A stretch of 58,422 nt of DNA from Hyphomonadaceae bacterium. GTDB taxonomy: Bacteria; Pseudomonadota; Alphaproteobacteria; Caulobacterales; Aquidulcibacteraceae. This document shows positions 8,224 through 51,971 of this stretch, piece after piece (positions within the stretch are counted from its first letter, which is position 1; the number at the start of each line of letters is the position of its first letter). Under the pieces are notes generated by a model, which saw only the letters and a program-made list of their open reading frames with translations, did not search any database and was not told where the DNA came from. Both the position numbers and the translations under genes were made by a program. The stretch covers positions 1-58,422 of the forward strand of contig JAKFWO010000043.1 of the NCBI GenBank assembly GCA_021731815.1, given 5' to 3'.

Positions 8224-10548
8224 CTATTCGGCGAGCTCCGGCTCCTCGGGTTCCTTCGCATTGCGGGAGGGGGGCTCGTTTTCGATGATCGTGAAAGTCA
8301 GCGCATCCTTGTTTTCCGGATCGGTGGCGATCTTGACGAGGCCGCCACGCTTCAGGCGCCCGAACAGCAATTCATCCGCCAGGGGCTTTTTGATATGCTC
8401 CTGAATCACGCGGCCAAGCGGCCTTGCGCCAAAGGCTTCGTCATAGCCGCGCTCGGCCAGCCAATCGGCGGCGGAATCGGAGATCTCGAAACTGACCTGC
8501 CGTTCGCCCAATTGCAGCTCGAGTTGCAACACGAATTTCTGCACCACCTGACGAATGATTTCGCGCGTGAGGCCCGAAAACGGAATGGTCGCATCCAGCC
8601 GGTTGCGGAATTCGGGTGTAAACAGGCGCTTGATTGCTTCCGCGTCCTCGCCCTCGCGTTTGCCGCGGCCGAAGCCCACCGATTCGCGCGCAGCATCCGC
8701 CGCCCCGGCATTGGTCGTCATGATAAGGATGACATTGCGGAAATCGACCTTCTTGGCGTTGGCATCGGTCAATTTGCCATGGTCCATGACCTGCAAAAGG
8801 ATGTTGAAAATGTCGGGATGGGCTTTCTCGATCTCGTCGAGCAGCAAGACGCAATGCGGGTGCTGATCGACGGCATCGGTCAGCTGCCCGCCCTGATCAT
8901 AGCCGACATAGCCGGGTGGTGCCCCGATCAGGCGCGACACGGTGTGACGCTCCATATACTCGCTCATGTCGAAACGGATCAGCTCGACGCCGGTGATCAA
9001 GGCCAATTGGCGCGCGACCTCGGTTTTTCCAACACCCGTGGGGCCCGAAAACAGATAGCAGCCGATCGGCTTGTTGGGTTCGCGCAAGCCTGCACGCGCG
9101 AGCTTGATGGCCGAAGCCAGCGCCTCGATGGCCTTGTCCTGACCGAACACGACGCGTTTGAGATCCGTCTCGAGCGAGCGCAGGGATTCGGCATCGTTAC
9201 GCGACATGTTTTTTGGGGGAATGCGCGCCATCCTGGCGAGCACGATCTCGACTTCCTTGAGGCCGATCACCTTGCGGCGCTTTGATTCCGGCAGCAATTT
9301 TTGCGAGGCCCCGGCCTCGTCAATCACATCAATCGCCTTGTCAGGTAATTTGCGGTCGCCAATATAGCGGGCCGATAATTCCACAGCCGCCTTGATGGCG
9401 TCCGCAGTATACCGGATCCCATGAAATTCCTCGTAATAGGATTTCAGTCCCTGAAGAATTTTGACTGCGTCCTCGACCGAAGGTTCATTGACATCGATCT
9501 TCTGGAACCGCCGCACAAGGGCGCGATCCTTTTCAAAGTGCTGGCGATATTCCTTATAGGTGGTCGATCCGATGCAGCGCAACTGACCCGATTGCAGGGC
9601 TGGCTTGAGCAAATTGGAGGCATCCATGGCCCCGCCGGAGGTTGCACCAGCCCCGATGACGGTGTGGATCTCGTCGATGAACAGGATCGCCTTGGGATGG
9701 TTTTCGAGCTCGCGGACCACTGCCTTCAGACGTTCCTCGAAATCGCCGCGATAGCGTGTGCCTGCCAGCAATGCGCCCATATCGAGCGAGAAAATCGTCG
9801 CGTCCTCAAGCACATCGGGCACGTCGCCCTCGATGATCTTCCGGCCAAGGCCTTCGGCGATGGCCGTCTTGCCGACCCCGGGATCACCGACGAGCAGCGG
9901 ATTATTTTTCTGGCGCCGGCACAGGATCTGGATGCAGCGCTCGACCTCGCTGGTTCGGCCGATCAAGGGATCCACGCGGCCCTTGCGGGCTTTCTCGTTC
10001 AAATTCACGCAATAGGCCTGCAGCGCCTCGCCGCCTGATTTCTGGGGAGGATCGGTCCGCTCCTCGCCTGCGCCCGTGCCGCGTGCCGGTTTCGAGGGGG
10101 AGGCACCCGGCTTCTTGGCCACGCCATGGCTGATGAATTGCACAGCGTCATAGCGGGTCATTTCCTGCTGGTTCAGGAAATAGACGGCATGGCTCTCGCG
10201 CTCGGCAAACAAGGCCACAATGACATTGGCACCGGTCACATCGTCGCGGCCCGAATTCTCAACATGCAGAATCGCCCGCTGCATCACCCGCTGGAAGCCG
10301 GCGGTGCGCCGCGCATCCGAGGGCTCGTCATCAGCGATATTGGCGAGCGTATTGTCCACGAAATGCGTGACATCGGCGCGCAATTTCTTGAGATCCACCC
10401 GGCAGGCTTCCATCACCTTCCTGGCGTCCTCGTCATCGAGCAGCGCCAGAAGAAGATGTTCGAGCGTCACATATTGATGACGCCGGCGCACGGCATGTGC
10501 GATGGCCCGCTGAACGGTCTCTTCCAGATTGCGGGTGAACGAAGCCAC
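8224..10548 (-). CDS. clpA: ATP-dependent Clp protease ATP-binding subunit ClpA
   Basis: AAA+ unfoldase that feeds substrates to ClpP, with the adaptor ClpS binding its N domain. Order of parts: Clp N domain (residues 1-145, LEHLLLALLDD), a variable linker with PSKPARGTGAGEE, the first AAA+ module (GDPGVGKT, then FIDEIHTVIGAG), the second module (GPTGVGKT, then LLDEIEKAH) and the D2-small domain. The 774 residues fit ClpA, and the lack of the long middle coiled coil excludes ClpB. I start at the GTG at 10548, since AAGGAG stands 6 nt before it. A charged Glu/Pro tail ends the protein. Confidence 0.96.
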   Translation of the reverse strand: MASFTRNLEETVQRAIAHAVRRRHQYVTLEHLLLALLDDEDARKVMEACRVDLKKLRADVTHFVDNTLANIADDEPSDARRTAGFQRVMQRAILHVENSGRDDVTGANVIVALFAERESHAVYFLNQQEMTRYDAVQFISHGVAKKPGASPSKPARGTGAGEERTDPPQKSGGEALQAYCVNLNEKARKGRVDPLIGRTSEVERCIQILCRRQKNNPLLVGDPGVGKTAIAEGLGRKIIEGDVPDVLEDATIFSLDMGALLAGTRYRGDFEERLKAVVRELENHPKAILFIDEIHTVIGAGATSGGAMDASNLLKPALQSGQLRCIGSTTYKEYRQHFEKDRALVRRFQKIDVNEPSVEDAVKILQGLKSYYEEFHGIRYTADAIKAAVELSARYIGDRKLPDKAIDVIDEAGASQKLLPESKRRKVIGLKEVEIVLARMARIPPKNMSRNDAESLRSLETDLKRVVFGQDKAIEALASAIKLARAGLREPNKPIGCYLFSGPTGVGKTEVARQLALITGVELIRFDMSEYMERHTVSRLIGAPPGYVGYDQGGQLTDAVDQHPHCVLLLDEIEKAHPDIFNILLQVMDHGKLTDANAKKVDFRNVILIMTTNAGAADAARESVGFGRGKREGEDAEAIKRLFTPEFRNRLDATIPFSGLTREIIRQVVQKFVLQLELQLGERQVSFEISDSAADWLAERGYDEAFGARPLGRVIQEHIKKPLADELLFGRLKRGGLVKIATDPENKDALTFTIIENEPPSRNAKEPEEPELAE

Positions 10549-45852: not shown

Positions 45853-46310
45853 CCCGCCCCTCCCATGCCGGACCGGTTCGCGGCTCCGAGCAGGTGCTTG
45901 TCCCGATTGGCGCGGGCGAGAATGTCGGGCCGGCGCTCGGCATAGGCCCCGGGGGCCCAGATCTGGAAGCGTTCGATCATGCCCACAAACAGGGCCTTGT
46001 CCCCGAGCCCGGCATGGGCCCGCAATTCCTCAGGCAGCCCTACCCGCCCGGTCTGGTCAAACGCCAGAAAGGACGCGCCGCCGAAAATTGCCGCCGACAA
46101 TGCCTCCCGGGTCGGATCGAAAGGCGGCAAAAGCGCGAGGCTCTCGGCGTAATGGCGCATCAGCGCATCGCCGCCGGCTTCGAGAAACGGCCCCTCGAAA
46201 GAGGGCCAGCAATAGATCCCCTCCGCCCCCTTCAGCGCCGCGCGAAATCCCGCAGGGACGGATACCCGTCCCTTGAGATCGATCGCATTGGCGATGGTCG
46301 AGACGAACAC
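45849..46310 (-). CDS. mraZ: Transcriptional regulator MraZ
   Basis: A 153-residue AbrB-fold regulator with the two tandem half-domains of MraZ: FVSTIANAIDLKGRVSVPAGFRAAL, and later FLAFDQTGRVGLPEELRAHAGL with VGMIERFQIWAP. The start is a GTG at 46310 with GGAG 5 nt upstream. MraZ is known to repress its own cluster by binding repeated TGGG-containing sites. Three such sites lie 150-175 bp upstream. It heads the dcw operon. Confidence 0.95.
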   Translation of the reverse strand: MFVSTIANAIDLKGRVSVPAGFRAALKGAEGIYCWPSFEGPFLEAGGDALMRHYAESLALLPPFDPTREALSAAIFGGASFLAFDQTGRVGLPEELRAHAGLGDKALFVGMIERFQIWAPGAYAERRPDILARANRDKHLLGAANRSGMGGAG

Positions 46311-46576
46311 GCGAACTCCGGTGGTGTGACTTCAAAAGGCGGGATCAGGCCGAGGCGGAACGCATGTTCAAACCGCGAAAGCTTCGATTACCGCGCCCCG
46401 AAATCTCTTGAACAAATACAGAACATGGACGGGAATGACAGATTTAGCATAAGCCGTCATGGGATAACATGGGATTATATGGGATACAATGGTTTTTATT
46501 CCATTAGCGATGGGATGACTTTGCTTGACTGCGCCCGGGGCTTGACCCGCCCGGGTCAGGCGGCGCAAAGGGCGCG
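46311..46576. other. Divergent intergenic region mraZ / TPP riboswitch
   Basis: Holds the dcw promoter to the left and the promoter of the thiamin-related unit to the right. The middle part (about 46400-46515) is AT-rich and carries the MraZ-like boxes. No gene is present. I cannot define -10 and -35 boxes with confidence. Confidence 0.6.
46460..46494. promoter_or_regulatory. MraZ-box-like direct repeats
   Basis: On the plus strand TGGGA occurs at 46460, 46470 and 46480, followed by a degenerate TGGTT at 46490. The period is exactly 10 bp, so the sites are TGGGN with 5-nt spacers, which is the arrangement reported for MraZ operators. A further TGGGA at 46511 is out of phase. The location upstream of mraZ supports autoregulation of the dcw cluster. 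Confidence 0.8.
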
Positions 46577-46667
46577 ATCACCTGGGGAGTCCCTTGCGGG
46601 GCTGAGAGGCCGATTTTCGGCGACCCATGAACTTGATCCGGATCATGCCGGCGAAGGGAGGGGATTG
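46577..46667 (+). promoter_or_regulatory. TPP riboswitch (THI element)
   Basis: The conserved core GGGGCTGAGAGG (46598-46609) is followed by CGACCC, TGAACTTGATCCGGATCATGC and CGGCGAAGGGAGG, which is the classic THI-box order. Stem pairing is visible: GTCCC with GGGGC around TTGC, GCCGA with TCGGC, and P1 of ATCACCT at 46577-46583 with AGGGGAT at 46659-46665 (one mismatch). The 3' strand of P1 contains the ribosome binding site of the next gene, only 2 nt from its ATG, so TPP binding should block translation directly. Confidence 0.97.
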
Positions 46668-48869
46668 ATGACCCGATACCGGGCCGCACGCTGTGGCGTG
46701 CCGTTTGCTTCACTGTCTTTCGCGGTGTGGGCCGTTCTGGGCTCGGCCTCCGCCTTTGCCCAGGCCGGGCCAGAACCGGCCCGCGAGACCGATACCGGGA
46801 TCGAAGTGCTCACCGTGCTCGGGCACCGCCAGGAAGTGGCCAATATTCCGGCCTCGGTCGTGGTCCTGGATCCGCGACGGATCGAGGACCGGCGGGTCCA
46901 GACAATCGATGATCTCGCCCCGCTCGTTCCCGGCCTGTTTGTGATCAATGATCAGGATCCGGGGACCAATATCGTCAATCTTCGGGGGGTAACGACAGAC
47001 CGGCTCCAGCAGCCGGCCGTGGCCTATGTGCTGAATGGCGTTCCGCTCGGCGATACGGAGTTTTTCACCGCACCTTTGTTCGATCTCGAACGGGTCGAAG
47101 TGGCGCGCGGGCCCCAGGGGGCGGCCTTCGGAAAGAATGCCGCGGGCGGGGTGTTGTCATTCCGTACGCGGGACCCGTCTTTCAGCGCGCCGGACGGTTT
47201 TTTGCGCCTTGCACTCGGAAATGGCGGCTTTTTCGAGGCCGAGGCCGCGGCGGGCGGCCAGATCGGTGCCGGCTTCGGCCTGCGCGTGGCGGGATTGTTC
47301 CGCTCGGCCAATGGGTTCATCTTCAACGAATTTCTGGAACGAAAGACGGATTTTTTCGACAATGGCGCGCTGCGGGTTACGCTCACCCGGGACCTCGGTG
47401 CCTGGCGGCTGGCCGCGCGCGCGCAATGGCTGGACGAACAGGGGGGCGCGGCCTTCATTTCCTCGGGCGATGTAACCGGTGATTTCGGCGGCCGGCTGGC
47501 GGGGGCCGCGCTCACCAATCCGATCGGGGATTTTCCAGGTCACGCCGATCGCCGCTGGGGCCATTACGCGCTGGAAGCAACGCGCGAAAGCGAGAAATTC
47601 ACGGTTTCGCTCCATTATGCCCATGACGATTATTCCAAGAATTTCGAGGAAGAACTGGATTTCCGCAATGGCCCGGTGAGCCTGTTCGGGCTGCCTTTGT
47701 TTCCCGACGGAATCCAGCCGATCCGCCAGCCGGTCAATCTCGATGTCGAAACCTTTGAAGCGCGCATCGCAAGCCCCGGAAACGGCACGCGTCTTGACTG
47801 GCGCGCGGGCCTGTTCGTGCAGGATGTCGCGCGCATCCGGATTGATGATTTCGGACCGCTGCAATTTGGGTCCCCTGCCCCGCGCTTTGATGTCCATTCG
47901 ACGCAATTTGGCATCTTTGGCGGTTTCGATCTGGCCATCCTCACCGATCGCAGCCTCGTTTTCGCGGCCGATCTGCGTTATGACCGCGACGCGCGCAGCC
48001 AGACCATCAACTCCACCGCCGATGGGGGGCTGATCGATGACCGCCAGGACATATTTGAGCGGGCGCAGCCGAAATTGTCCCTGGCCTGGCGGCCTTTGGG
48101 TGCCGCCGCCGACCGTCCGGTAATCTATGCCACCTGGGGCGAGGCCTTCCGCACCGGCGGGTTCAATCCCCTGCCCGATGCCGATGACATTTTCGCGGCC
48201 TCCTTCGCACCGGAAATCGCCCGCTCGCTGGAGCTCGGCGGACGGGCCCGTTTCCGGGGCTTCCGGCTGGATGGCGCGCTTTATGCCACCAATGTCACCA
48301 ATTATCAGAATTTTACCTTTCTCGACGGGCGATCCATCACCTTGTCGGTCGATCGCGTTCGCATTCGTGGCCTCGAAATCTCTGCGCTGAGCCCGAAATC
48401 GAGAGGGTTCCGCTTCGAGGCCGCCTTTGCCCTGGTCAACGCCCGGATCGCGGAATTCGTCAGTCCCGATCCGTTGATTCCGGGTGCCACCCGGAATTCC
48501 TCGGGCGCGCGGGTTCCCAATGTCCCCGAATTCACCGGCACCTTTGGCGCGATCTGGCAGAAAAACCTGGGAGCGGGAGAACTCACCTTGCGCGCCGACG
48601 CCAATCTGATTGGTCGGGTGGTATTCGAACTCGACAATGTCCTCCATACGCCCACCCGCGCCACGCTCGATCTGCGCGGCGAATATGGCCGGGGCAAAGT
48701 CTCACTTGCGTTGTGGAGCAAGAATGCCACCGATTCCCGCAGCGCCATTTCAGCCTTTGGTCAGGGCCAATTGCCCTTGCTTCAGGGGCTTGGACCCAAT
48801 GGTCCCTTTGACAGTTTTACCCTGTCGCGCGGCCGGACCTTCGGCGCGGAATTGATCGCACGTTATTGA
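46668..48869 (+). CDS. TonB-dependent outer membrane receptor under TPP control
   Basis: A 733-residue receptor. Signal peptide to about residue 32 (SASAFAQA), a TonB-box-like segment around EVLTVLG, the plug domain (NIPASVVVLDPRRIEDRRV, IDDLAPLVPGLFV, IVNLRGV, LERVEVARGPQGAAFGKNAAGGVLSF) and a 22-strand barrel that ends in Tyr (ELIARY), as expected for BAM-dependent insertion. The TPP riboswitch upstream and tenA downstream point to uptake of thiamin, its phosphates or the pyrimidine moiety. This substrate is inferred. No inner membrane transporter is adjacent. Confidence 0.93.
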   Translation: MTRYRAARCGVPFASLSFAVWAVLGSASAFAQAGPEPARETDTGIEVLTVLGHRQEVANIPASVVVLDPRRIEDRRVQTIDDLAPLVPGLFVINDQDPGTNIVNLRGVTTDRLQQPAVAYVLNGVPLGDTEFFTAPLFDLERVEVARGPQGAAFGKNAAGGVLSFRTRDPSFSAPDGFLRLALGNGGFFEAEAAAGGQIGAGFGLRVAGLFRSANGFIFNEFLERKTDFFDNGALRVTLTRDLGAWRLAARAQWLDEQGGAAFISSGDVTGDFGGRLAGAALTNPIGDFPGHADRRWGHYALEATRESEKFTVSLHYAHDDYSKNFEEELDFRNGPVSLFGLPLFPDGIQPIRQPVNLDVETFEARIASPGNGTRLDWRAGLFVQDVARIRIDDFGPLQFGSPAPRFDVHSTQFGIFGGFDLAILTDRSLVFAADLRYDRDARSQTINSTADGGLIDDRQDIFERAQPKLSLAWRPLGAAADRPVIYATWGEAFRTGGFNPLPDADDIFAASFAPEIARSLELGGRARFRGFRLDGALYATNVTNYQNFTFLDGRSITLSVDRVRIRGLEISALSPKSRGFRFEAAFALVNARIAEFVSPDPLIPGATRNSSGARVPNVPEFTGTFGAIWQKNLGAGELTLRADANLIGRVVFELDNVLHTPTRATLDLRGEYGRGKVSLALWSKNATDSRSAISAFGQGQLPLLQGLGPNGPFDSFTLSRGRTFGAELIARY

Positions 48870-48889
48870 TCTGAAAAAATGAGGCTGAA

Positions 48890-49555
48890 ATGAGCTTTTG
48901 CAACCGGATCTGGACTGAAGCGGCTCCCTTGCTCGACGCAATCCACGCCCATCCCTTCAACCGGGAACTCGCGGAAGGCAGTCTCGACCGCGCTGCATTC
49001 CGGCATTATATGATTCAGGATTCGCTTTATCTTCAGGGCTTTGCGCGCGCGCTCAGTCTCGGAGCCGCCAAGGCACCCGGGGCGGCGGAGATCGAGGATT
49101 TCGCCCGCGCGGCCCAGGTGGCAATCGTGGTCGAGCGCGCATTGCACGCCGATTATCTCGGCCAGTTCGGGATCGATCCCGCCGAAGCGGCGGCTTCCGA
49201 TCACAGCCCGGCCTGTCAGGCCTATGTGGATTTCCTGCTAACACGGGCAGCCTTGGGGAGCTTTGGCGAATTGGCAGCGGCCATTCTGCCCTGCTTCTGG
49301 GTCTATCATGAGGTCGGGGCGCTGATCGCCACCCGATCCCGGCCGGATAATTTTTATCAGGCCTGGATCAATACCTATACCGATCCGGAATTTGCGGCGG
49401 CCGTCGCGCGGATGCAGGCCCATGTCGACAAGGCCGCCACCGGGGCCGGTGACGACGAACGCGCCCGCATGGGCAAGGCATTTCTGCGCTCGACCCAATA
49501 TGAATTTATGTTCTGGGACAGCGCGTGGCGGCAGGTCACCTGGCCGGTGGGATAG
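48890..49555 (+). CDS. tenA: Aminopyrimidine aminohydrolase TenA (thiaminase II)
   Basis: Salvages the HMP pyrimidine from degraded thiamin (aminomethyl to hydroxymethyl pyrimidine). The 221-residue all-helical protein keeps the catalytic Cys135 (ILPCFWVYHEVG) and Asp44 (YMIQDSLYLQGFARAL), as well as YQAWINTYTDPEF and the C-terminal STQYEFMFWDSAW. GAGG stands upstream of the ATG. It begins 20 bp after the receptor stop, so it should share the TPP-controlled transcript. Confidence 0.96.
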   Translation: MSFCNRIWTEAAPLLDAIHAHPFNRELAEGSLDRAAFRHYMIQDSLYLQGFARALSLGAAKAPGAAEIEDFARAAQVAIVVERALHADYLGQFGIDPAEAAASDHSPACQAYVDFLLTRAALGSFGELAAAILPCFWVYHEVGALIATRSRPDNFYQAWINTYTDPEFAAAVARMQAHVDKAATGAGDDERARMGKAFLRSTQYEFMFWDSAWRQVTWPVG

Positions 49556-49583
49556 CCCGGAACCGCCTTGCGGGCATGCCGTT

Positions 49584-51971
49584 TCAGGCGGCCTCCACAA
49601 AGTTCGCCAGCACCTTCTTTTCGCCGGCCTTGTCGAAGGCGATTGTGAGCTTGTCGCCCTCGATCTCGCGCACCCGGCCATAGCCGAATTTGATGTGGAA
49701 CACCCGCGCTCCGATTTTTATTCCACCAGGGCCGGTGGATTTAGGGCCGGTGGATTTACCCGATGGTGCCTCCACCCGCCCGGCCCGGCCTTCGAGAATG
49801 GGCGGCCTTCCGCCGAAGGTATGGCCATTGGTGGTCCGGCCGCCGGAAGGCGCAAAATCCTGCCCGCGATTTTCGGTGAGGCGCCGCCAGCCGGGACTGT
49901 CATAGCCGCCGGTCACCGCCGGTTCGGCAATTGTGGCGGGGCCGCGCTGTCCGAAAAAGCCGGTCTCGGAGACGGCCTCGACATGCGCTTCCGGGATCTC
50001 GTCAATGAAGCGGGATGGCAGCACATTCTGCCAGCGCCCATAGATCTGTCGATTGGCGGAAAACAGGATCACTGCCCGCTCCCGCGCGCGCGTCAGGCCG
50101 ACATAGGCAAGGCGGCGTTCTTCCTCAAGCCCCTTGATCCCGTTTTCATCGACCGAGCGTTGCGAGGGGAAGACCTGCTCCTCCCAGCCCGGCAGGAAGA
50201 CCAGCGGAAATTCCAGCCCCTTGGCCGCATGGAGCGTCATGATCTCCACCTCGTCATCGGCACCCGGACGATCGAGATCCATCACCAATTGCACATGCTC
50301 GAGATAGCCCGAAAGGCTATCGAAGCTGCGCATGGCCTCGACCAGTTCCTTGAGATTGTCGAGCCGGGACTGGCTTTGGGGTGTCTTCTCGGCCTGAAGC
50401 ATTTCGACATAGCCGCTCTCTTCGAGCACAATTTCCGCGAGCTCCGGAAGCGGGAGGCTGGTGGCCTGTTTCCGCCAGCGCGAGAGATCGGTCAGGAACC
50501 GGTTGAGCCCGGTGCGCGCGACGCCGCGGACTTCATCGGCCCCGCCATGGAAATCAGCCGCCTGGCACAGCGACACCCCGCGCGCACGGGCAAATATCTG
50601 AAGCTTTTGCAGCGAGCTTTCGCCCACCCCGCGCCGCGGATTGTTCACCACCCGTTCGAATGCCAGATCATCGTCGGGCTGGTGGACGAGGCGCAGCCAG
50701 GCATGGGCATCGCGGATCTCGGCGCGCTCGAAGAAGCGCGGCCCACCGATCACCCGATAAGGCAGGCCGAGCTGGATGAAGCGCTCTTCAAAGGCCCGCA
50801 TCTGCCATGAGGCGCGCACAAGGATGGCGCATTCGGAATATTTCCGGCCATTGCGTCGCCAGTCCTCGATCAGTTCGGAAACCTGGCGTGCCTCGGTCTC
50901 CCCGTCCCATACCCCGCGGACCTCGACCTTTTCGCCGCCTTCGGCTTCCGTCCACAGGGTCTTGCCCAGCCGCCCGGAATTGGCCGCGATGAGGCCGGAA
51001 GCCGCCCCCAGAATATGGGCGGTCGAGCGGTAATTGCGCTCGAGGCGGACCACTTTCGCACCGGGGAAGTCGCGCTCGAAACGCAGGATATTATCGACCT
51101 CGGCCCCCCGCCAGCCATAAATGGACTGGTCATCATCGCCCACCACACAGAGATTCTTGGTTCCCTGGGCAAGAAGCCGCAGCCAGAGATATTGGGCGGT
51201 GTTGGTATCCTGATATTCGTCGACCATCAGGAAGCGAAACCGGCCGCGCCAATCCTCCAGGATATCGGGATGCTGCTGAAAAATCGTGATATTATGGAGC
51301 AACAAATCGCCGAAATCGCAGCAATTCAGGGTTTTAAGCCGGTCCTGATAGGTCTGGTAGAGCTCGGCCGCGCGCCCGTCGGCAAAGCTTTTGGCCATAT
51401 GCGCATCCACGCGCCGGGGTGACAGCGCGCGGTTTTTCCAGGAATCGACGATTCCGGCAAACAGCCGTGCCGGCCAGCGCTTCTCGTCCACCCGGGCGGC
51501 TTCCAGCACCTGCTTGATCAGCCGGATCTGGTCATCCGTGTCGAGGATGGTGAAGCTCGAGCGCAGTCCGACCAATTCACAATGGCGGCGCAGGATCTGG
51601 TTGGCGATGGAATGAAAGGTTCCGAACCACTGGAGCCCTTCCGAGGCCGGCCCAAGCATGTGGGCGACGCGTTCCTTCATCTCGCGCGCGGCCTTGTTGG
51701 TAAAGGTCACGGCGAGAATCTGCCAGGGTTTTGCCCGTCCGGTGGCCAGAAGGTGAACCAGCCGCGTGGTCAGCACCCGGGTTTTCCCCGAGCCTGCACC
51801 CGCGAGGACCAGAACGGGCCCGTCCAGGGCTTCCACGGCCTCTTTCTGCTCGGGATTGAGTCCGGCGAGATAAGGCGCGGAAATGGCCACTCGTGGTGCT
51901 GCGCGCTGGGACACCGGAATTCCGGCGGAAGGGGCGGCAGATGTGGCAGGTGAGGTTGGGGAGACAGTCAT
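49584..51971 (-). CDS. uvrD: ATP-dependent DNA helicase UvrD/PcrA
   Basis: Superfamily 1A 3'-5' helicase for nucleotide excision and mismatch repair. Motifs in order: the Q-like LNPEQKEAVEALDGPVLVLAGAGSGKT (motif I), MVDEYQDTNTAQYLWLRLLA (II), VVGDDDQSIYGWRGA (III), ERNYRST (IV), TLHAAKGLEFPLVFLPGWEE (V) and YVGLTRARERAVILFS (VI). 795 residues including a flexible linker near the C terminus that holds GKSTGPKSTGPGG, made by a 15-bp duplication, and a Tudor-like end (GARVFHIKFGYGRVREIEGDKL). Confidence 0.96.
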   Translation of the reverse strand: MTVSPTSPATSAAPSAGIPVSQRAAPRVAISAPYLAGLNPEQKEAVEALDGPVLVLAGAGSGKTRVLTTRLVHLLATGRAKPWQILAVTFTNKAAREMKERVAHMLGPASEGLQWFGTFHSIANQILRRHCELVGLRSSFTILDTDDQIRLIKQVLEAARVDEKRWPARLFAGIVDSWKNRALSPRRVDAHMAKSFADGRAAELYQTYQDRLKTLNCCDFGDLLLHNITIFQQHPDILEDWRGRFRFLMVDEYQDTNTAQYLWLRLLAQGTKNLCVVGDDDQSIYGWRGAEVDNILRFERDFPGAKVVRLERNYRSTAHILGAASGLIAANSGRLGKTLWTEAEGGEKVEVRGVWDGETEARQVSELIEDWRRNGRKYSECAILVRASWQMRAFEERFIQLGLPYRVIGGPRFFERAEIRDAHAWLRLVHQPDDDLAFERVVNNPRRGVGESSLQKLQIFARARGVSLCQAADFHGGADEVRGVARTGLNRFLTDLSRWRKQATSLPLPELAEIVLEESGYVEMLQAEKTPQSQSRLDNLKELVEAMRSFDSLSGYLEHVQLVMDLDRPGADDEVEIMTLHAAKGLEFPLVFLPGWEEQVFPSQRSVDENGIKGLEEERRLAYVGLTRARERAVILFSANRQIYGRWQNVLPSRFIDEIPEAHVEAVSETGFFGQRGPATIAEPAVTGGYDSPGWRRLTENRGQDFAPSGGRTTNGHTFGGRPPILEGRAGRVEAPSGKSTGPKSTGPGGIKIGARVFHIKFGYGRVREIEGDKLTIAFDKAGEKKVLANFVEAA
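49728..49757. repeat. 15-bp tandem duplication inside uvrD
   Basis: AGGGCCGGTGGATTT occurs twice in succession. On the coding strand it encodes the doubled KSTGP in the linker before the C-terminal Tudor-like domain, in frame. Confidence 0.9.

Follow-up and report, generated by a model that had tools for sequence, protein, structure and literature searches.

Background

The TonB-dependent outer-membrane receptor OMthi (BT2390) of Bacteroides thetaiotaomicron is described as regulated by a TPP riboswitch, with a deletion that raises the thiamin requirement when thiamin synthesis is also deleted (PMC5613172). The unit reported here was likened to it by description, as it too has a TonB-dependent outer-membrane receptor under a TPP riboswitch. 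In most gut Bacteroidetes, however, the described partners of OMthi are pnuT and tnr3, not tenA; in B. thetaiotaomicron this arrangement is split and the synthesis operon is complete, whereas the genome studied here gave neither a PnuC/PnuT nor a ThiC match. Another putative TonB thiamin receptor, omr1, lies near TPP riboswitches in clusters of SAR86 and Flavobacteriales (PMC10881298), and omr1 transcripts also come from Sphingomonadales, the specificity being called unclear (PMC12442306). It is again alike by description, as a TonB receptor near a TPP riboswitch, but the available parts of these two papers describe no omr1-tenA unit and no exchange for thiC.

The thiV-tenA arrangement of Pelagibacterales comes from ThiC-less alphaproteobacteria in which tenA and the gene of a pyrimidine transporter have a TPP riboswitch next to them (PMC10881298); that transporter is a sodium:solute symporter, whereas ours is an outer-membrane TonB receptor. 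In Variovorax, a TonB-dependent receptor-like gene is part of a TPP-controlled thiamin operon, but it sits within a synthesis operon together with a permease, and the genome has thiC (PMC10409787). Candidatus Phycosocius, bloom-associated freshwater bacteria of the same family as our bacterium (G001 and G009 in our survey), are reported thiamin auxotrophs without genes essential for thiamin synthesis and with putative thiamin uptake genes (PMC10008586). The main text of that paper mentions none of thiC, tenA, HMP, riboswitch, pyrimidine or thiazole; a general auxotrophy is described there, whereas the genes searched here confine the gap to ThiC. The transporters that import the pyrimidine vitamers FAMP and AmMP have been called unclear (PMC10470507).

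TPP-controlled outer-membrane receptors are already known, in agreement with the predictions for other bacteria that an earlier sequence-only reading of this DNA had mentioned. What is new is a receptor-TenA unit in place of thiC.

Receptor and TenA

The window, i.e. the whole stretch of DNA analysed, is 58,422 nucleotides of a Hyphomonadaceae genome. It carries on the forward strand a TonB-dependent receptor gene at 46668-48869 (733 aa, stop included; ATG 46668-46670, stop 48867-48869), followed after 20 nt by tenA at 48890-49555 (221 aa, stop included). The receptor scores 69.9 bits with Plug (PF07715) and 93.8 bits with the TonB barrel (PF00593), both above cut-off, and has a predicted fold with pLDDT 78.7 and pTM 0.82. 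The second product is assigned to thiaminase II of the Cys type by TIGR04306 (139.6 bits, cut-off 130). The Pfam domains and TIGR04306 confirm the order of receptor and tenA that had been proposed from the sequence.

The best solved match of TenA is 1to9, which we take to be B. subtilis TenA (E 4.2e-33, gap-free alignment). Asp44, Tyr47, Tyr112, Cys135, Tyr139, Tyr163 and Glu205 are all present, and none of them varies among 20 aligned TenA sequences, so that Cys135 and Asp44 are indeed intact, as first noted; Asp44, Tyr112, Cys135 and Glu205 presumably have active-site roles.

The structure allowed no conclusion on the ligand. The nearest solved chain to the receptor model is the siderophore receptor FyuA (4epa; TM by target 0.86, 19% identity), the 50 structural matches listed share 13-19% identity and are receptors for many ligands, and all 17 NCBIfam matches are below cut-off and belong to models of siderophore, heme, B12, PQQ and other receptors. 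Since neither fold nor family scores reveal the ligand, it could be unrelated to thiamin, for example a siderophore or cobalamin, with the position behind a TPP riboswitch being incidental. We regard this as very improbable in view of a pattern-based scan of about 85,000 species genomes with the receptor alone as query. It found 26 related receptor loci, of 37-49% receptor identity; a riboswitch over cut-off lies upstream in 22 of them and TenA directly downstream in 23. One locus (L102) has neither riboswitch nor tenA, and its examined DNA begins close before the gene. Within the family, furthermore, the riboswitch-receptor pair occurs only in genomes without ThiC.

Riboswitch and start of translation

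The TPP riboswitch aptamer (THI element, RF00059) covers 46573-46676 of the forward strand with 65.9 bits by cmscan, over the gathering threshold of 54.3 (E 9.5e-11 for the whole window), which bears out the riboswitch first read from the sequence before the receptor gene. By the Rfam alignment, P1 consists of 46578-46582 with 46660-46664, where four of five pairs are standard and A46580 faces G46662. Three more pairs, C46575-G46667, G46576-U46666 and A46577-U46665, can prolong the helix outward, and this extension is also found in the minimum-energy fold of 46573-46676 alone. The strands then become 46575-46582 and 46660-46667, the latter reaching the base before the ATG.

The Shine-Dalgarno sequence GGAGG (46657-46661) is wholly inside the aptamer and ends 6 nt short of the ATG; P4 contributes G46657, the junction G46658-A46659 and P1 G46660-G46661. 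The sequence-only reading had put AGGGG as the ribosome binding site in P1, 2 nt from the start codon. Its placement of the site inside the aptamer stands; AGGGG, however, is at 46659-46663, 4 nt from the ATG, and GGAGG, which spans P4, junction and P1, is the better Shine-Dalgarno match. The geometry is that of direct masking, as the Shine-Dalgarno sequence lies within the closed aptamer and adjoins the ATG at 46668. Such direct overlap has reportedly been noted earlier for THI elements of Alphaproteobacteria. From the aptamer and the Shine-Dalgarno sequence within it we infer TPP binding and translational control.

Energy folding is compatible with a switch as well as with its absence. Folded alone, 46573-46676 has an aptamer-like free minimum. 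With downstream sequence (46573-46700), the aptamer-constrained fold has -44.3 kcal/mol against -46.3 kcal/mol for the free minimum. The unpaired probability of 46657-46661 without ligand is, as an energy prediction only, 0.15-0.74 in 46573-46700 and 0.06-0.47 in 46540-46740, and a free Shine-Dalgarno sequence was not predicted in the unliganded ensembles of these stretches. The pairing of P1 is poor in relatives (by our own count, 36 of the 55 P1 cells from 11 elements are standard), and masking would therefore rest on the whole aptamer core and not on P1 alone.

The riboswitch might instead act on transcription, or via another downstream structure, with the Shine-Dalgarno overlap as a by-product. 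The short P1, imperfect in relatives, would fit this, as would the unliganded minimum about 2 kcal/mol from the aptamer with no free Shine-Dalgarno sequence predicted, and a terminator-like match at 46686-46701, within the first codons of the receptor. But the scan of 46300-49700 gave only three terminator-like matches, against an average of 4.2 in shuffles, and none between aptamer and start codon. Moreover, family riboswitches as a rule overlap the start codon with the 3' end of the aptamer: a rough script reported a start codon at most 25 nt from the aptamer core in 50 of 60. We consider action on transcription, or via another downstream structure, unlikely.

That count should be read with the script's errors. 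For the window's element it reported an in-frame TTG just before the ATG; at L038 a GTG only 1 nt past the core, where a GTG further on is likely the start; at L041 a TTG where thiC probably does not start; and at L017 a frame that the contig end cuts off after 6 codons. L029, with an ATG that leads into no more than a short frame, was missed. By our own reading, 27 of the 50 compact riboswitches precede an open reading frame with a thiC-like beginning. Compactness, to which the sequence-only reading had drawn attention, is ordinary in the family; riboswitches before thiC share this geometry, and it was therefore rejected as a mark of this unit.

Thiamin genes and proposed route

The genome is 99.77% complete and contains one TPP riboswitch, that of the window. 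No ThiC match was found in it, while the same search gave a match in 13 of 14 control genomes. ThiG (366.3 bits), ThiE (195.6 bits), ThiD (299.1 bits) and ThiL (255.3 bits) were all matched, so that only the pyrimidine half of thiamin is apparently missing, and the bacterium appears, judging from its gene set, unable to make it. This context supports the original proposal of uptake of a thiamin compound with salvage by TenA. A search of the genome for thiD, thiE and inner-membrane transporters under THI elements had also been suggested; both genes are present, and neither of the two types of inner-membrane carrier looked for was found. One is a CytX-like permease known here from genus g7, where TPP riboswitches precede it; it lacks a relative in this genome and occurs in three of the 60 family genomes surveyed, all of g7. 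PnuC/PnuT gave no match over cut-off in the same 60 genomes, the window's included, and one match below cut-off, in G057.

The best explanation, which we hold to be probable, is a two-gene TPP-repressed operon for uptake of a pyrimidine-bearing thiamin compound and its salvage by TenA, substituting for ThiC. When TPP is scarce, the aptamer would not be closed and the Shine-Dalgarno sequence formed from its 3' strand would be reachable, so that both proteins, outer-membrane receptor and TenA, would be made. The receptor would take thiamin or a breakdown product bearing the pyrimidine into the periplasm, and a putative inner-membrane carrier would pass it onward. TenA would free HMP, ThiD would phosphorylate it, ThiE would couple the HMP unit to the cell's own thiazole from the ThiG branch, and ThiL would make TPP, which in turn would close the switch. 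The sequence itself shows the receptor family with its predicted fold, the TenA active site and the thiamin gene set; what the receptor binds, how its cargo crosses the inner membrane and the flux through salvage are inferred.

Alternatively, the receptor may be specific for intact thiamin or its phosphates, like OMthi, with TenA mainly recycling thiamin damaged in the cell. In Bacteroides, a TPP-riboswitch receptor of this kind reduces how much thiamin a strain with deleted synthesis needs (PMC5613172), and thiamin would also satisfy an auxotroph lacking ThiC alone, if TenA splits it. A need for pyrimidine nevertheless fits better with the adjacency of receptor and tenA in 23 of 26 loci, the single switch and the retention of ThiG, and we rate specificity for intact thiamin as quite possible but short of probable.

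Distribution in the family

In the survey of 60 family genomes, the pair of riboswitch and receptor was found in 14, none with ThiC, against ThiC in 39 of the other 46. Thiaminase II, counted by a PF03070 match of at least 110 bits, is present in 16 genomes, namely these 14 and two further ThiC-less ones (ThiC in 0 of 16); all five weaker PF03070 matches tested were CADD-family proteins and not thiaminase II. The tenA gene does not adjoin the receptor in two of the 14, G015 (receptor cut by the contig end) and G022, and in G016 and G025 tenA stands without a receptor in surrounding contigs of 8.7 and 10 kb. Five genomes have neither a ThiC nor a thiaminase II match (G019, G040, G044, G049, G051). 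G019 has a riboswitch-linked CytX-like permease instead. The ThiC of G049 was possibly lost to assembly, because a thiC-like start stands behind its riboswitch. The nine genomes of genus group g2, to which Ca. Phycosocius belongs, gave no ThiC match and keep ThiG and ThiE, and should therefore need the pyrimidine half only.

Outside the family, the set of riboswitch, receptor and tenA recurs in Sphingobium and in Rhodospirillaceae MAGs, and this recurrence, together with that in family relatives, lends further support to uptake and salvage. ThiC accompanies the unit in five of the 17 genomes searched through receptor loci, all five being Sphingobium, which speaks against the best explanation.

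An origin of the receptor genomes as one clade within the family was rejected by the AU test (p 0.00039) on a ThiG+ThiE tree of 22 of the 60 genomes, seven with the receptor; deep support in this tree is weak and it may carry transfers of its own. G015 was left out because of its extremely long branch in a first tree. The link between receptor and ThiC loss therefore does not go back to one inherited event, provided that ThiG and ThiE were not transferred themselves.

HMP is small enough for porins, and a TonB receptor for it would be unusual, which also counts against the proposed route. As a tentative and rather doubtful extension, this receptor family may be devoted to pyrimidine vitamers (HMP, aminopyrimidine, formyl-aminopyrimidine) and not to thiamin, providing an energised step for a porin-sized molecule, and may together with TenA have taken over from ThiC on more than one occasion in Alphaproteobacteria, including some tied to freshwater algae.

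Conclusion

The receptor is a specific, testable candidate for the import of vitamin B1 or its pyrimidine precursors, and the bacterial family concerned includes bloom-associated freshwater members. The auxotrophy reported for Ca. Phycosocius is sharpened to a prediction for genus group g2, whose need should be confined to the pyrimidine half, and growth or mutant experiments can be envisaged in the named relatives Aquidulcibacter paucihalophilus, Ca. Phycosocius and Sphingobium. In several relatives the riboswitch, receptor and tenA take the place of the synthesis gene that was lost, and this suggests a route of scavenging.

Operon layout and proteins

The aptamer of the TPP riboswitch spans 46573-46676 (plus strand) and scores 65.9 bits against a gathering score of 54.3. 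Directly 3' of it, on the same strand, a TonB-dependent receptor of 733 aa is encoded (46668-48869), with Plug and barrel domains over the Pfam cut-offs. The tenA gene (48890-49555, plus strand) starts 20 nt past the receptor stop, and its product of 221 aa scores 139.6 against a thiaminase II cut-off of 130. Both flanks carry minus-strand genes, the dcw genes mraZ, rsmH, ftsL, ftsI and murE on one side and a UvrD-like helicase gene on the other, all named from ORF translations.

TenA aligns without gaps to 1to9, the solved structure of B. subtilis TenA. Asp44, Tyr47, Tyr112, Cys135, Tyr139, Tyr163 and Glu205 are present and invariant across 20 aligned sequences, so that Cys135 and Asp44 are intact, as the sequence-only reading had stated. 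The predicted structure of the receptor is that of a TonB receptor (mean pLDDT 78.7, pTM 0.82). Its best solved structural match is the yersiniabactin receptor FyuA at 19% identity, and a sequence search of solved structures likewise placed a FyuA entry, 4epa, on top; neither match indicates the ligand.

Four direct repeats (TGGGA, TGGGA, TGGGA, TGG) with 10-base spacing occupy 46460-46492, in the gap that separates the minus-strand mraZ from the riboswitch. They resemble the MraZ operator and could be part of a promoter region that the receptor operon shares. Closely upstream of the riboswitch, a strong inverted repeat (GACCCG/CGGGTC, 46544-46561) forms a hairpin in the computed fold and is followed by no T tail.

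Start site and riboswitch geometry

AGGGG occupies 46659-46663 and the receptor start codon (ATG) 46668-46670; the two are 4 nt apart, where the first reading gave 2 nt. The best Shine-Dalgarno (SD) match is GGAGG at 46657-46661, 6 nt before the ATG. Of this motif, the Rfam pairing puts G46660-G46661 in P1, the helix in which the earlier reading saw the ribosome binding site; G46657 is part of P4, and G46658 with A46659 form part of the junction that leads into P1. In the window P1 has 4 of 5 standard pairs and is extendable as far as the base preceding the ATG; eight bases of its 5' strand, GATCACCT (46576-46583), match the anti-SD tail of 16S rRNA. Under the same model ten relatives have 2 to 4 of 5 standard pairs, giving, by hand count, 36 standard cells out of 55 with the window element included. 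The constant feature across these elements is that the SD is supplied by the aptamer's own 3' strand. Ligand-free folding predicted no free SD, with unpaired probabilities of 0.15-0.74 (46573-46700) and 0.06-0.47 (46540-46740).

The compact switch of this receptor-TenA pair had been singled out as deserving study, but such compactness is ordinary in the family: a rough script placed a start codon at most 25 nt from the aptamer core in 50 of the 60 family riboswitches. By reading, a thiC-like ORF start stands behind 27 of those 50, and since the same geometry is found ahead of thiC we regard it as the family norm.

Thiamin genes and distribution in the family

The assembly of the window's genome (2.53 Mb, 48 contigs) is 99.77% complete, and the receptor-tenA element is its only TPP riboswitch match. 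A ThiC search gave no candidates in this genome, the same search being positive in 13 of 14 control genomes. ThiG (366.3 bits) and ThiL (255.3 bits) were matched, and a search for thiD and thiE, suggested by the sequence-only reading, found both (299.1 and 195.6 bits). With this gene content the thiazole half is expected to be made, and joining and phosphorylation to be possible, and the pyrimidine half not to be made.

Among 60 Aquidulcibacteraceae genomes searched, 55 carry TPP riboswitches (60 matches). Fourteen matches in 14 genomes precede a receptor relative: the window's own, nine of genus group g2, and G014, G015, G022 and G023. Directly behind the receptor, tenA is found in 12 of the 14, running into a contig end in G006, G007 and G014. 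In G022 tenA lies elsewhere. The G015 receptor is truncated at a contig end, and the tenA of that genome sits on a different contig that has no receptor. A second TPP riboswitch of G015 (L021, contig C274) precedes an ORF for a ThiO-like glycine oxidase, which scores 209.9 bits, under the model cut-off of 250.8. PF05690 matches adjoin the riboswitches in all nine g2 genomes, and in the seven g2 loci with listed ORFs an ORF read as ThiG is directly upstream.

ThiC was matched in none of the 14 riboswitch-receptor genomes, whereas 39 of the remaining 46 have it. Thiaminase II was called at PF03070 scores of at least 110 bits, a cut chosen after seeing a score gap at 88-110; it is present in 16 genomes, the 14 receptor genomes together with G016 and G025, and ThiC in none of them. 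All five weaker matches tested were CADD-family proteins (NCBIfam), and all four stronger ones, from G015, G016, G022 and G025, were over the thiaminase II cut-off.

The seven other genomes without a ThiC match are G016 (63% complete), G019 (99%), G025 (87%), G040 (65%), G044 (79%), G049 (91%) and G051 (99%). For G049 the assembly may explain the absence, because a thiC-like start stands behind its riboswitch. In G019 the riboswitch precedes a CytX-like permease, of which a close relative in G020 scores 237.9 bits, below the CytX model cut-off of 309.85. With this permease and no ThiC match, G019, a genome of genus g7, would represent another solution to the missing ThiC, here at the inner membrane.

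Three g7 loci (L012, L019, L033) have a TPP riboswitch ahead of a CytX-like NCS1 permease. In six loci of thiC-bearing relatives (L005, L006, L009, L013, L031, L046) the ORF behind the riboswitch encodes an unknown, membrane-like protein of about 140 aa, and a thiC-like ORF comes later; the L005 protein, the only one of these tested, matched neither Pfam nor NCBIfam.

Distribution beyond the family

One genome per species was scanned for the receptor (84,980 species), seeding by two short peptide patterns, so the 26 loci found are not exhaustive. Thirteen are family genomes already counted; of the others, five belong to Sphingobium, four are Rhodospirillaceae MAGs and four are further alphaproteobacterial MAGs. 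A TPP riboswitch over the cut-off lies upstream in 22 of the 26. The other four are L101 (the G022 locus, 47.9 bits, below the cut-off), L122 (visible by eye), the truncated L124, and L102, with no riboswitch in the short stretch present before the receptor gene. TenA is directly downstream in 23 loci, cut by a contig end in four of these (L100, L109, L114, L123). It is missing from this position in L101, L102 and the truncated L125.

The ThiC search took in 17 of these genomes, the 13 outside the family and four within it, and found ThiC in five, all Sphingobium; the unit can thus coexist with ThiC outside the family. ThiC was not found in the other 8 of the 13 (completeness not given). In Sphingobium terrigena the thiamin unit is followed at a short distance by two cobalamin riboswitches (L117:7809-8044 and 9328-9559), each scoring about 101 bits.

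Evolutionary history

A protein tree built from ThiG+ThiE covered 22 genomes, including seven that have the receptor; G015 was left out for its long branch. The receptor-bearing genomes do not group in this tree, and forcing them into one clade was rejected (AU p 0.00039). This implies that ThiC was lost, or the unit gained, repeatedly, provided that ThiG and ThiE did not move between lineages themselves. The receptor and TenA trees, midpoint-rooted, with partly different membership and compared by main groups, show the same main groups, which fits joint inheritance.

Known systems and proposed mechanism

TPP-regulated outer membrane receptors had been noted as predicted in other bacteria, and such cases are on record: in Bacteroides a TonB receptor linked to a TPP riboswitch contributes to thiamin acquisition (PMC5613172), and surveys of aquatic communities follow putative omr1 receptors, whose specificity is called unclear (PMC10881298, PMC12442306). 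Published work also describes a TonB receptor-like gene within a thiamin operon of Variovorax (PMC10409787), riboswitch, thiV and tenA together in Pelagibacterales without ThiC (PMC10881298), and Ca. Phycosocius without essential thiamin synthesis genes (PMC10008586); the words thiC, tenA and riboswitch are absent from the main text of the last. A unit of TonB receptor and tenA taking the place of thiC was not found described in the portions of open-licence literature searched.

Taking the anatomy and gene content as observed, we infer TPP binding, control, a ligand and an inner-membrane step in the following cycle. At low TPP the aptamer would stay open and leave the SD accessible; the receptor would import a pyrimidine-bearing thiamin compound, from which TenA would release HMP; ThiD, ThiE and ThiL would carry HMP through to TPP, which would close the riboswitch. 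Searches of the window's genome for CytX-like permease relatives and PnuC/PnuT identified no inner-membrane carrier.

Uptake of a thiamin compound with salvage by TenA, as first proposed, is supported as a candidate function by a genome that lacks a ThiC match and bears ThiG, ThiD, ThiE and ThiL. The receptor-tenA unit is thus a well-supported, genuine candidate operon for the uptake and salvage of vitamin B1.
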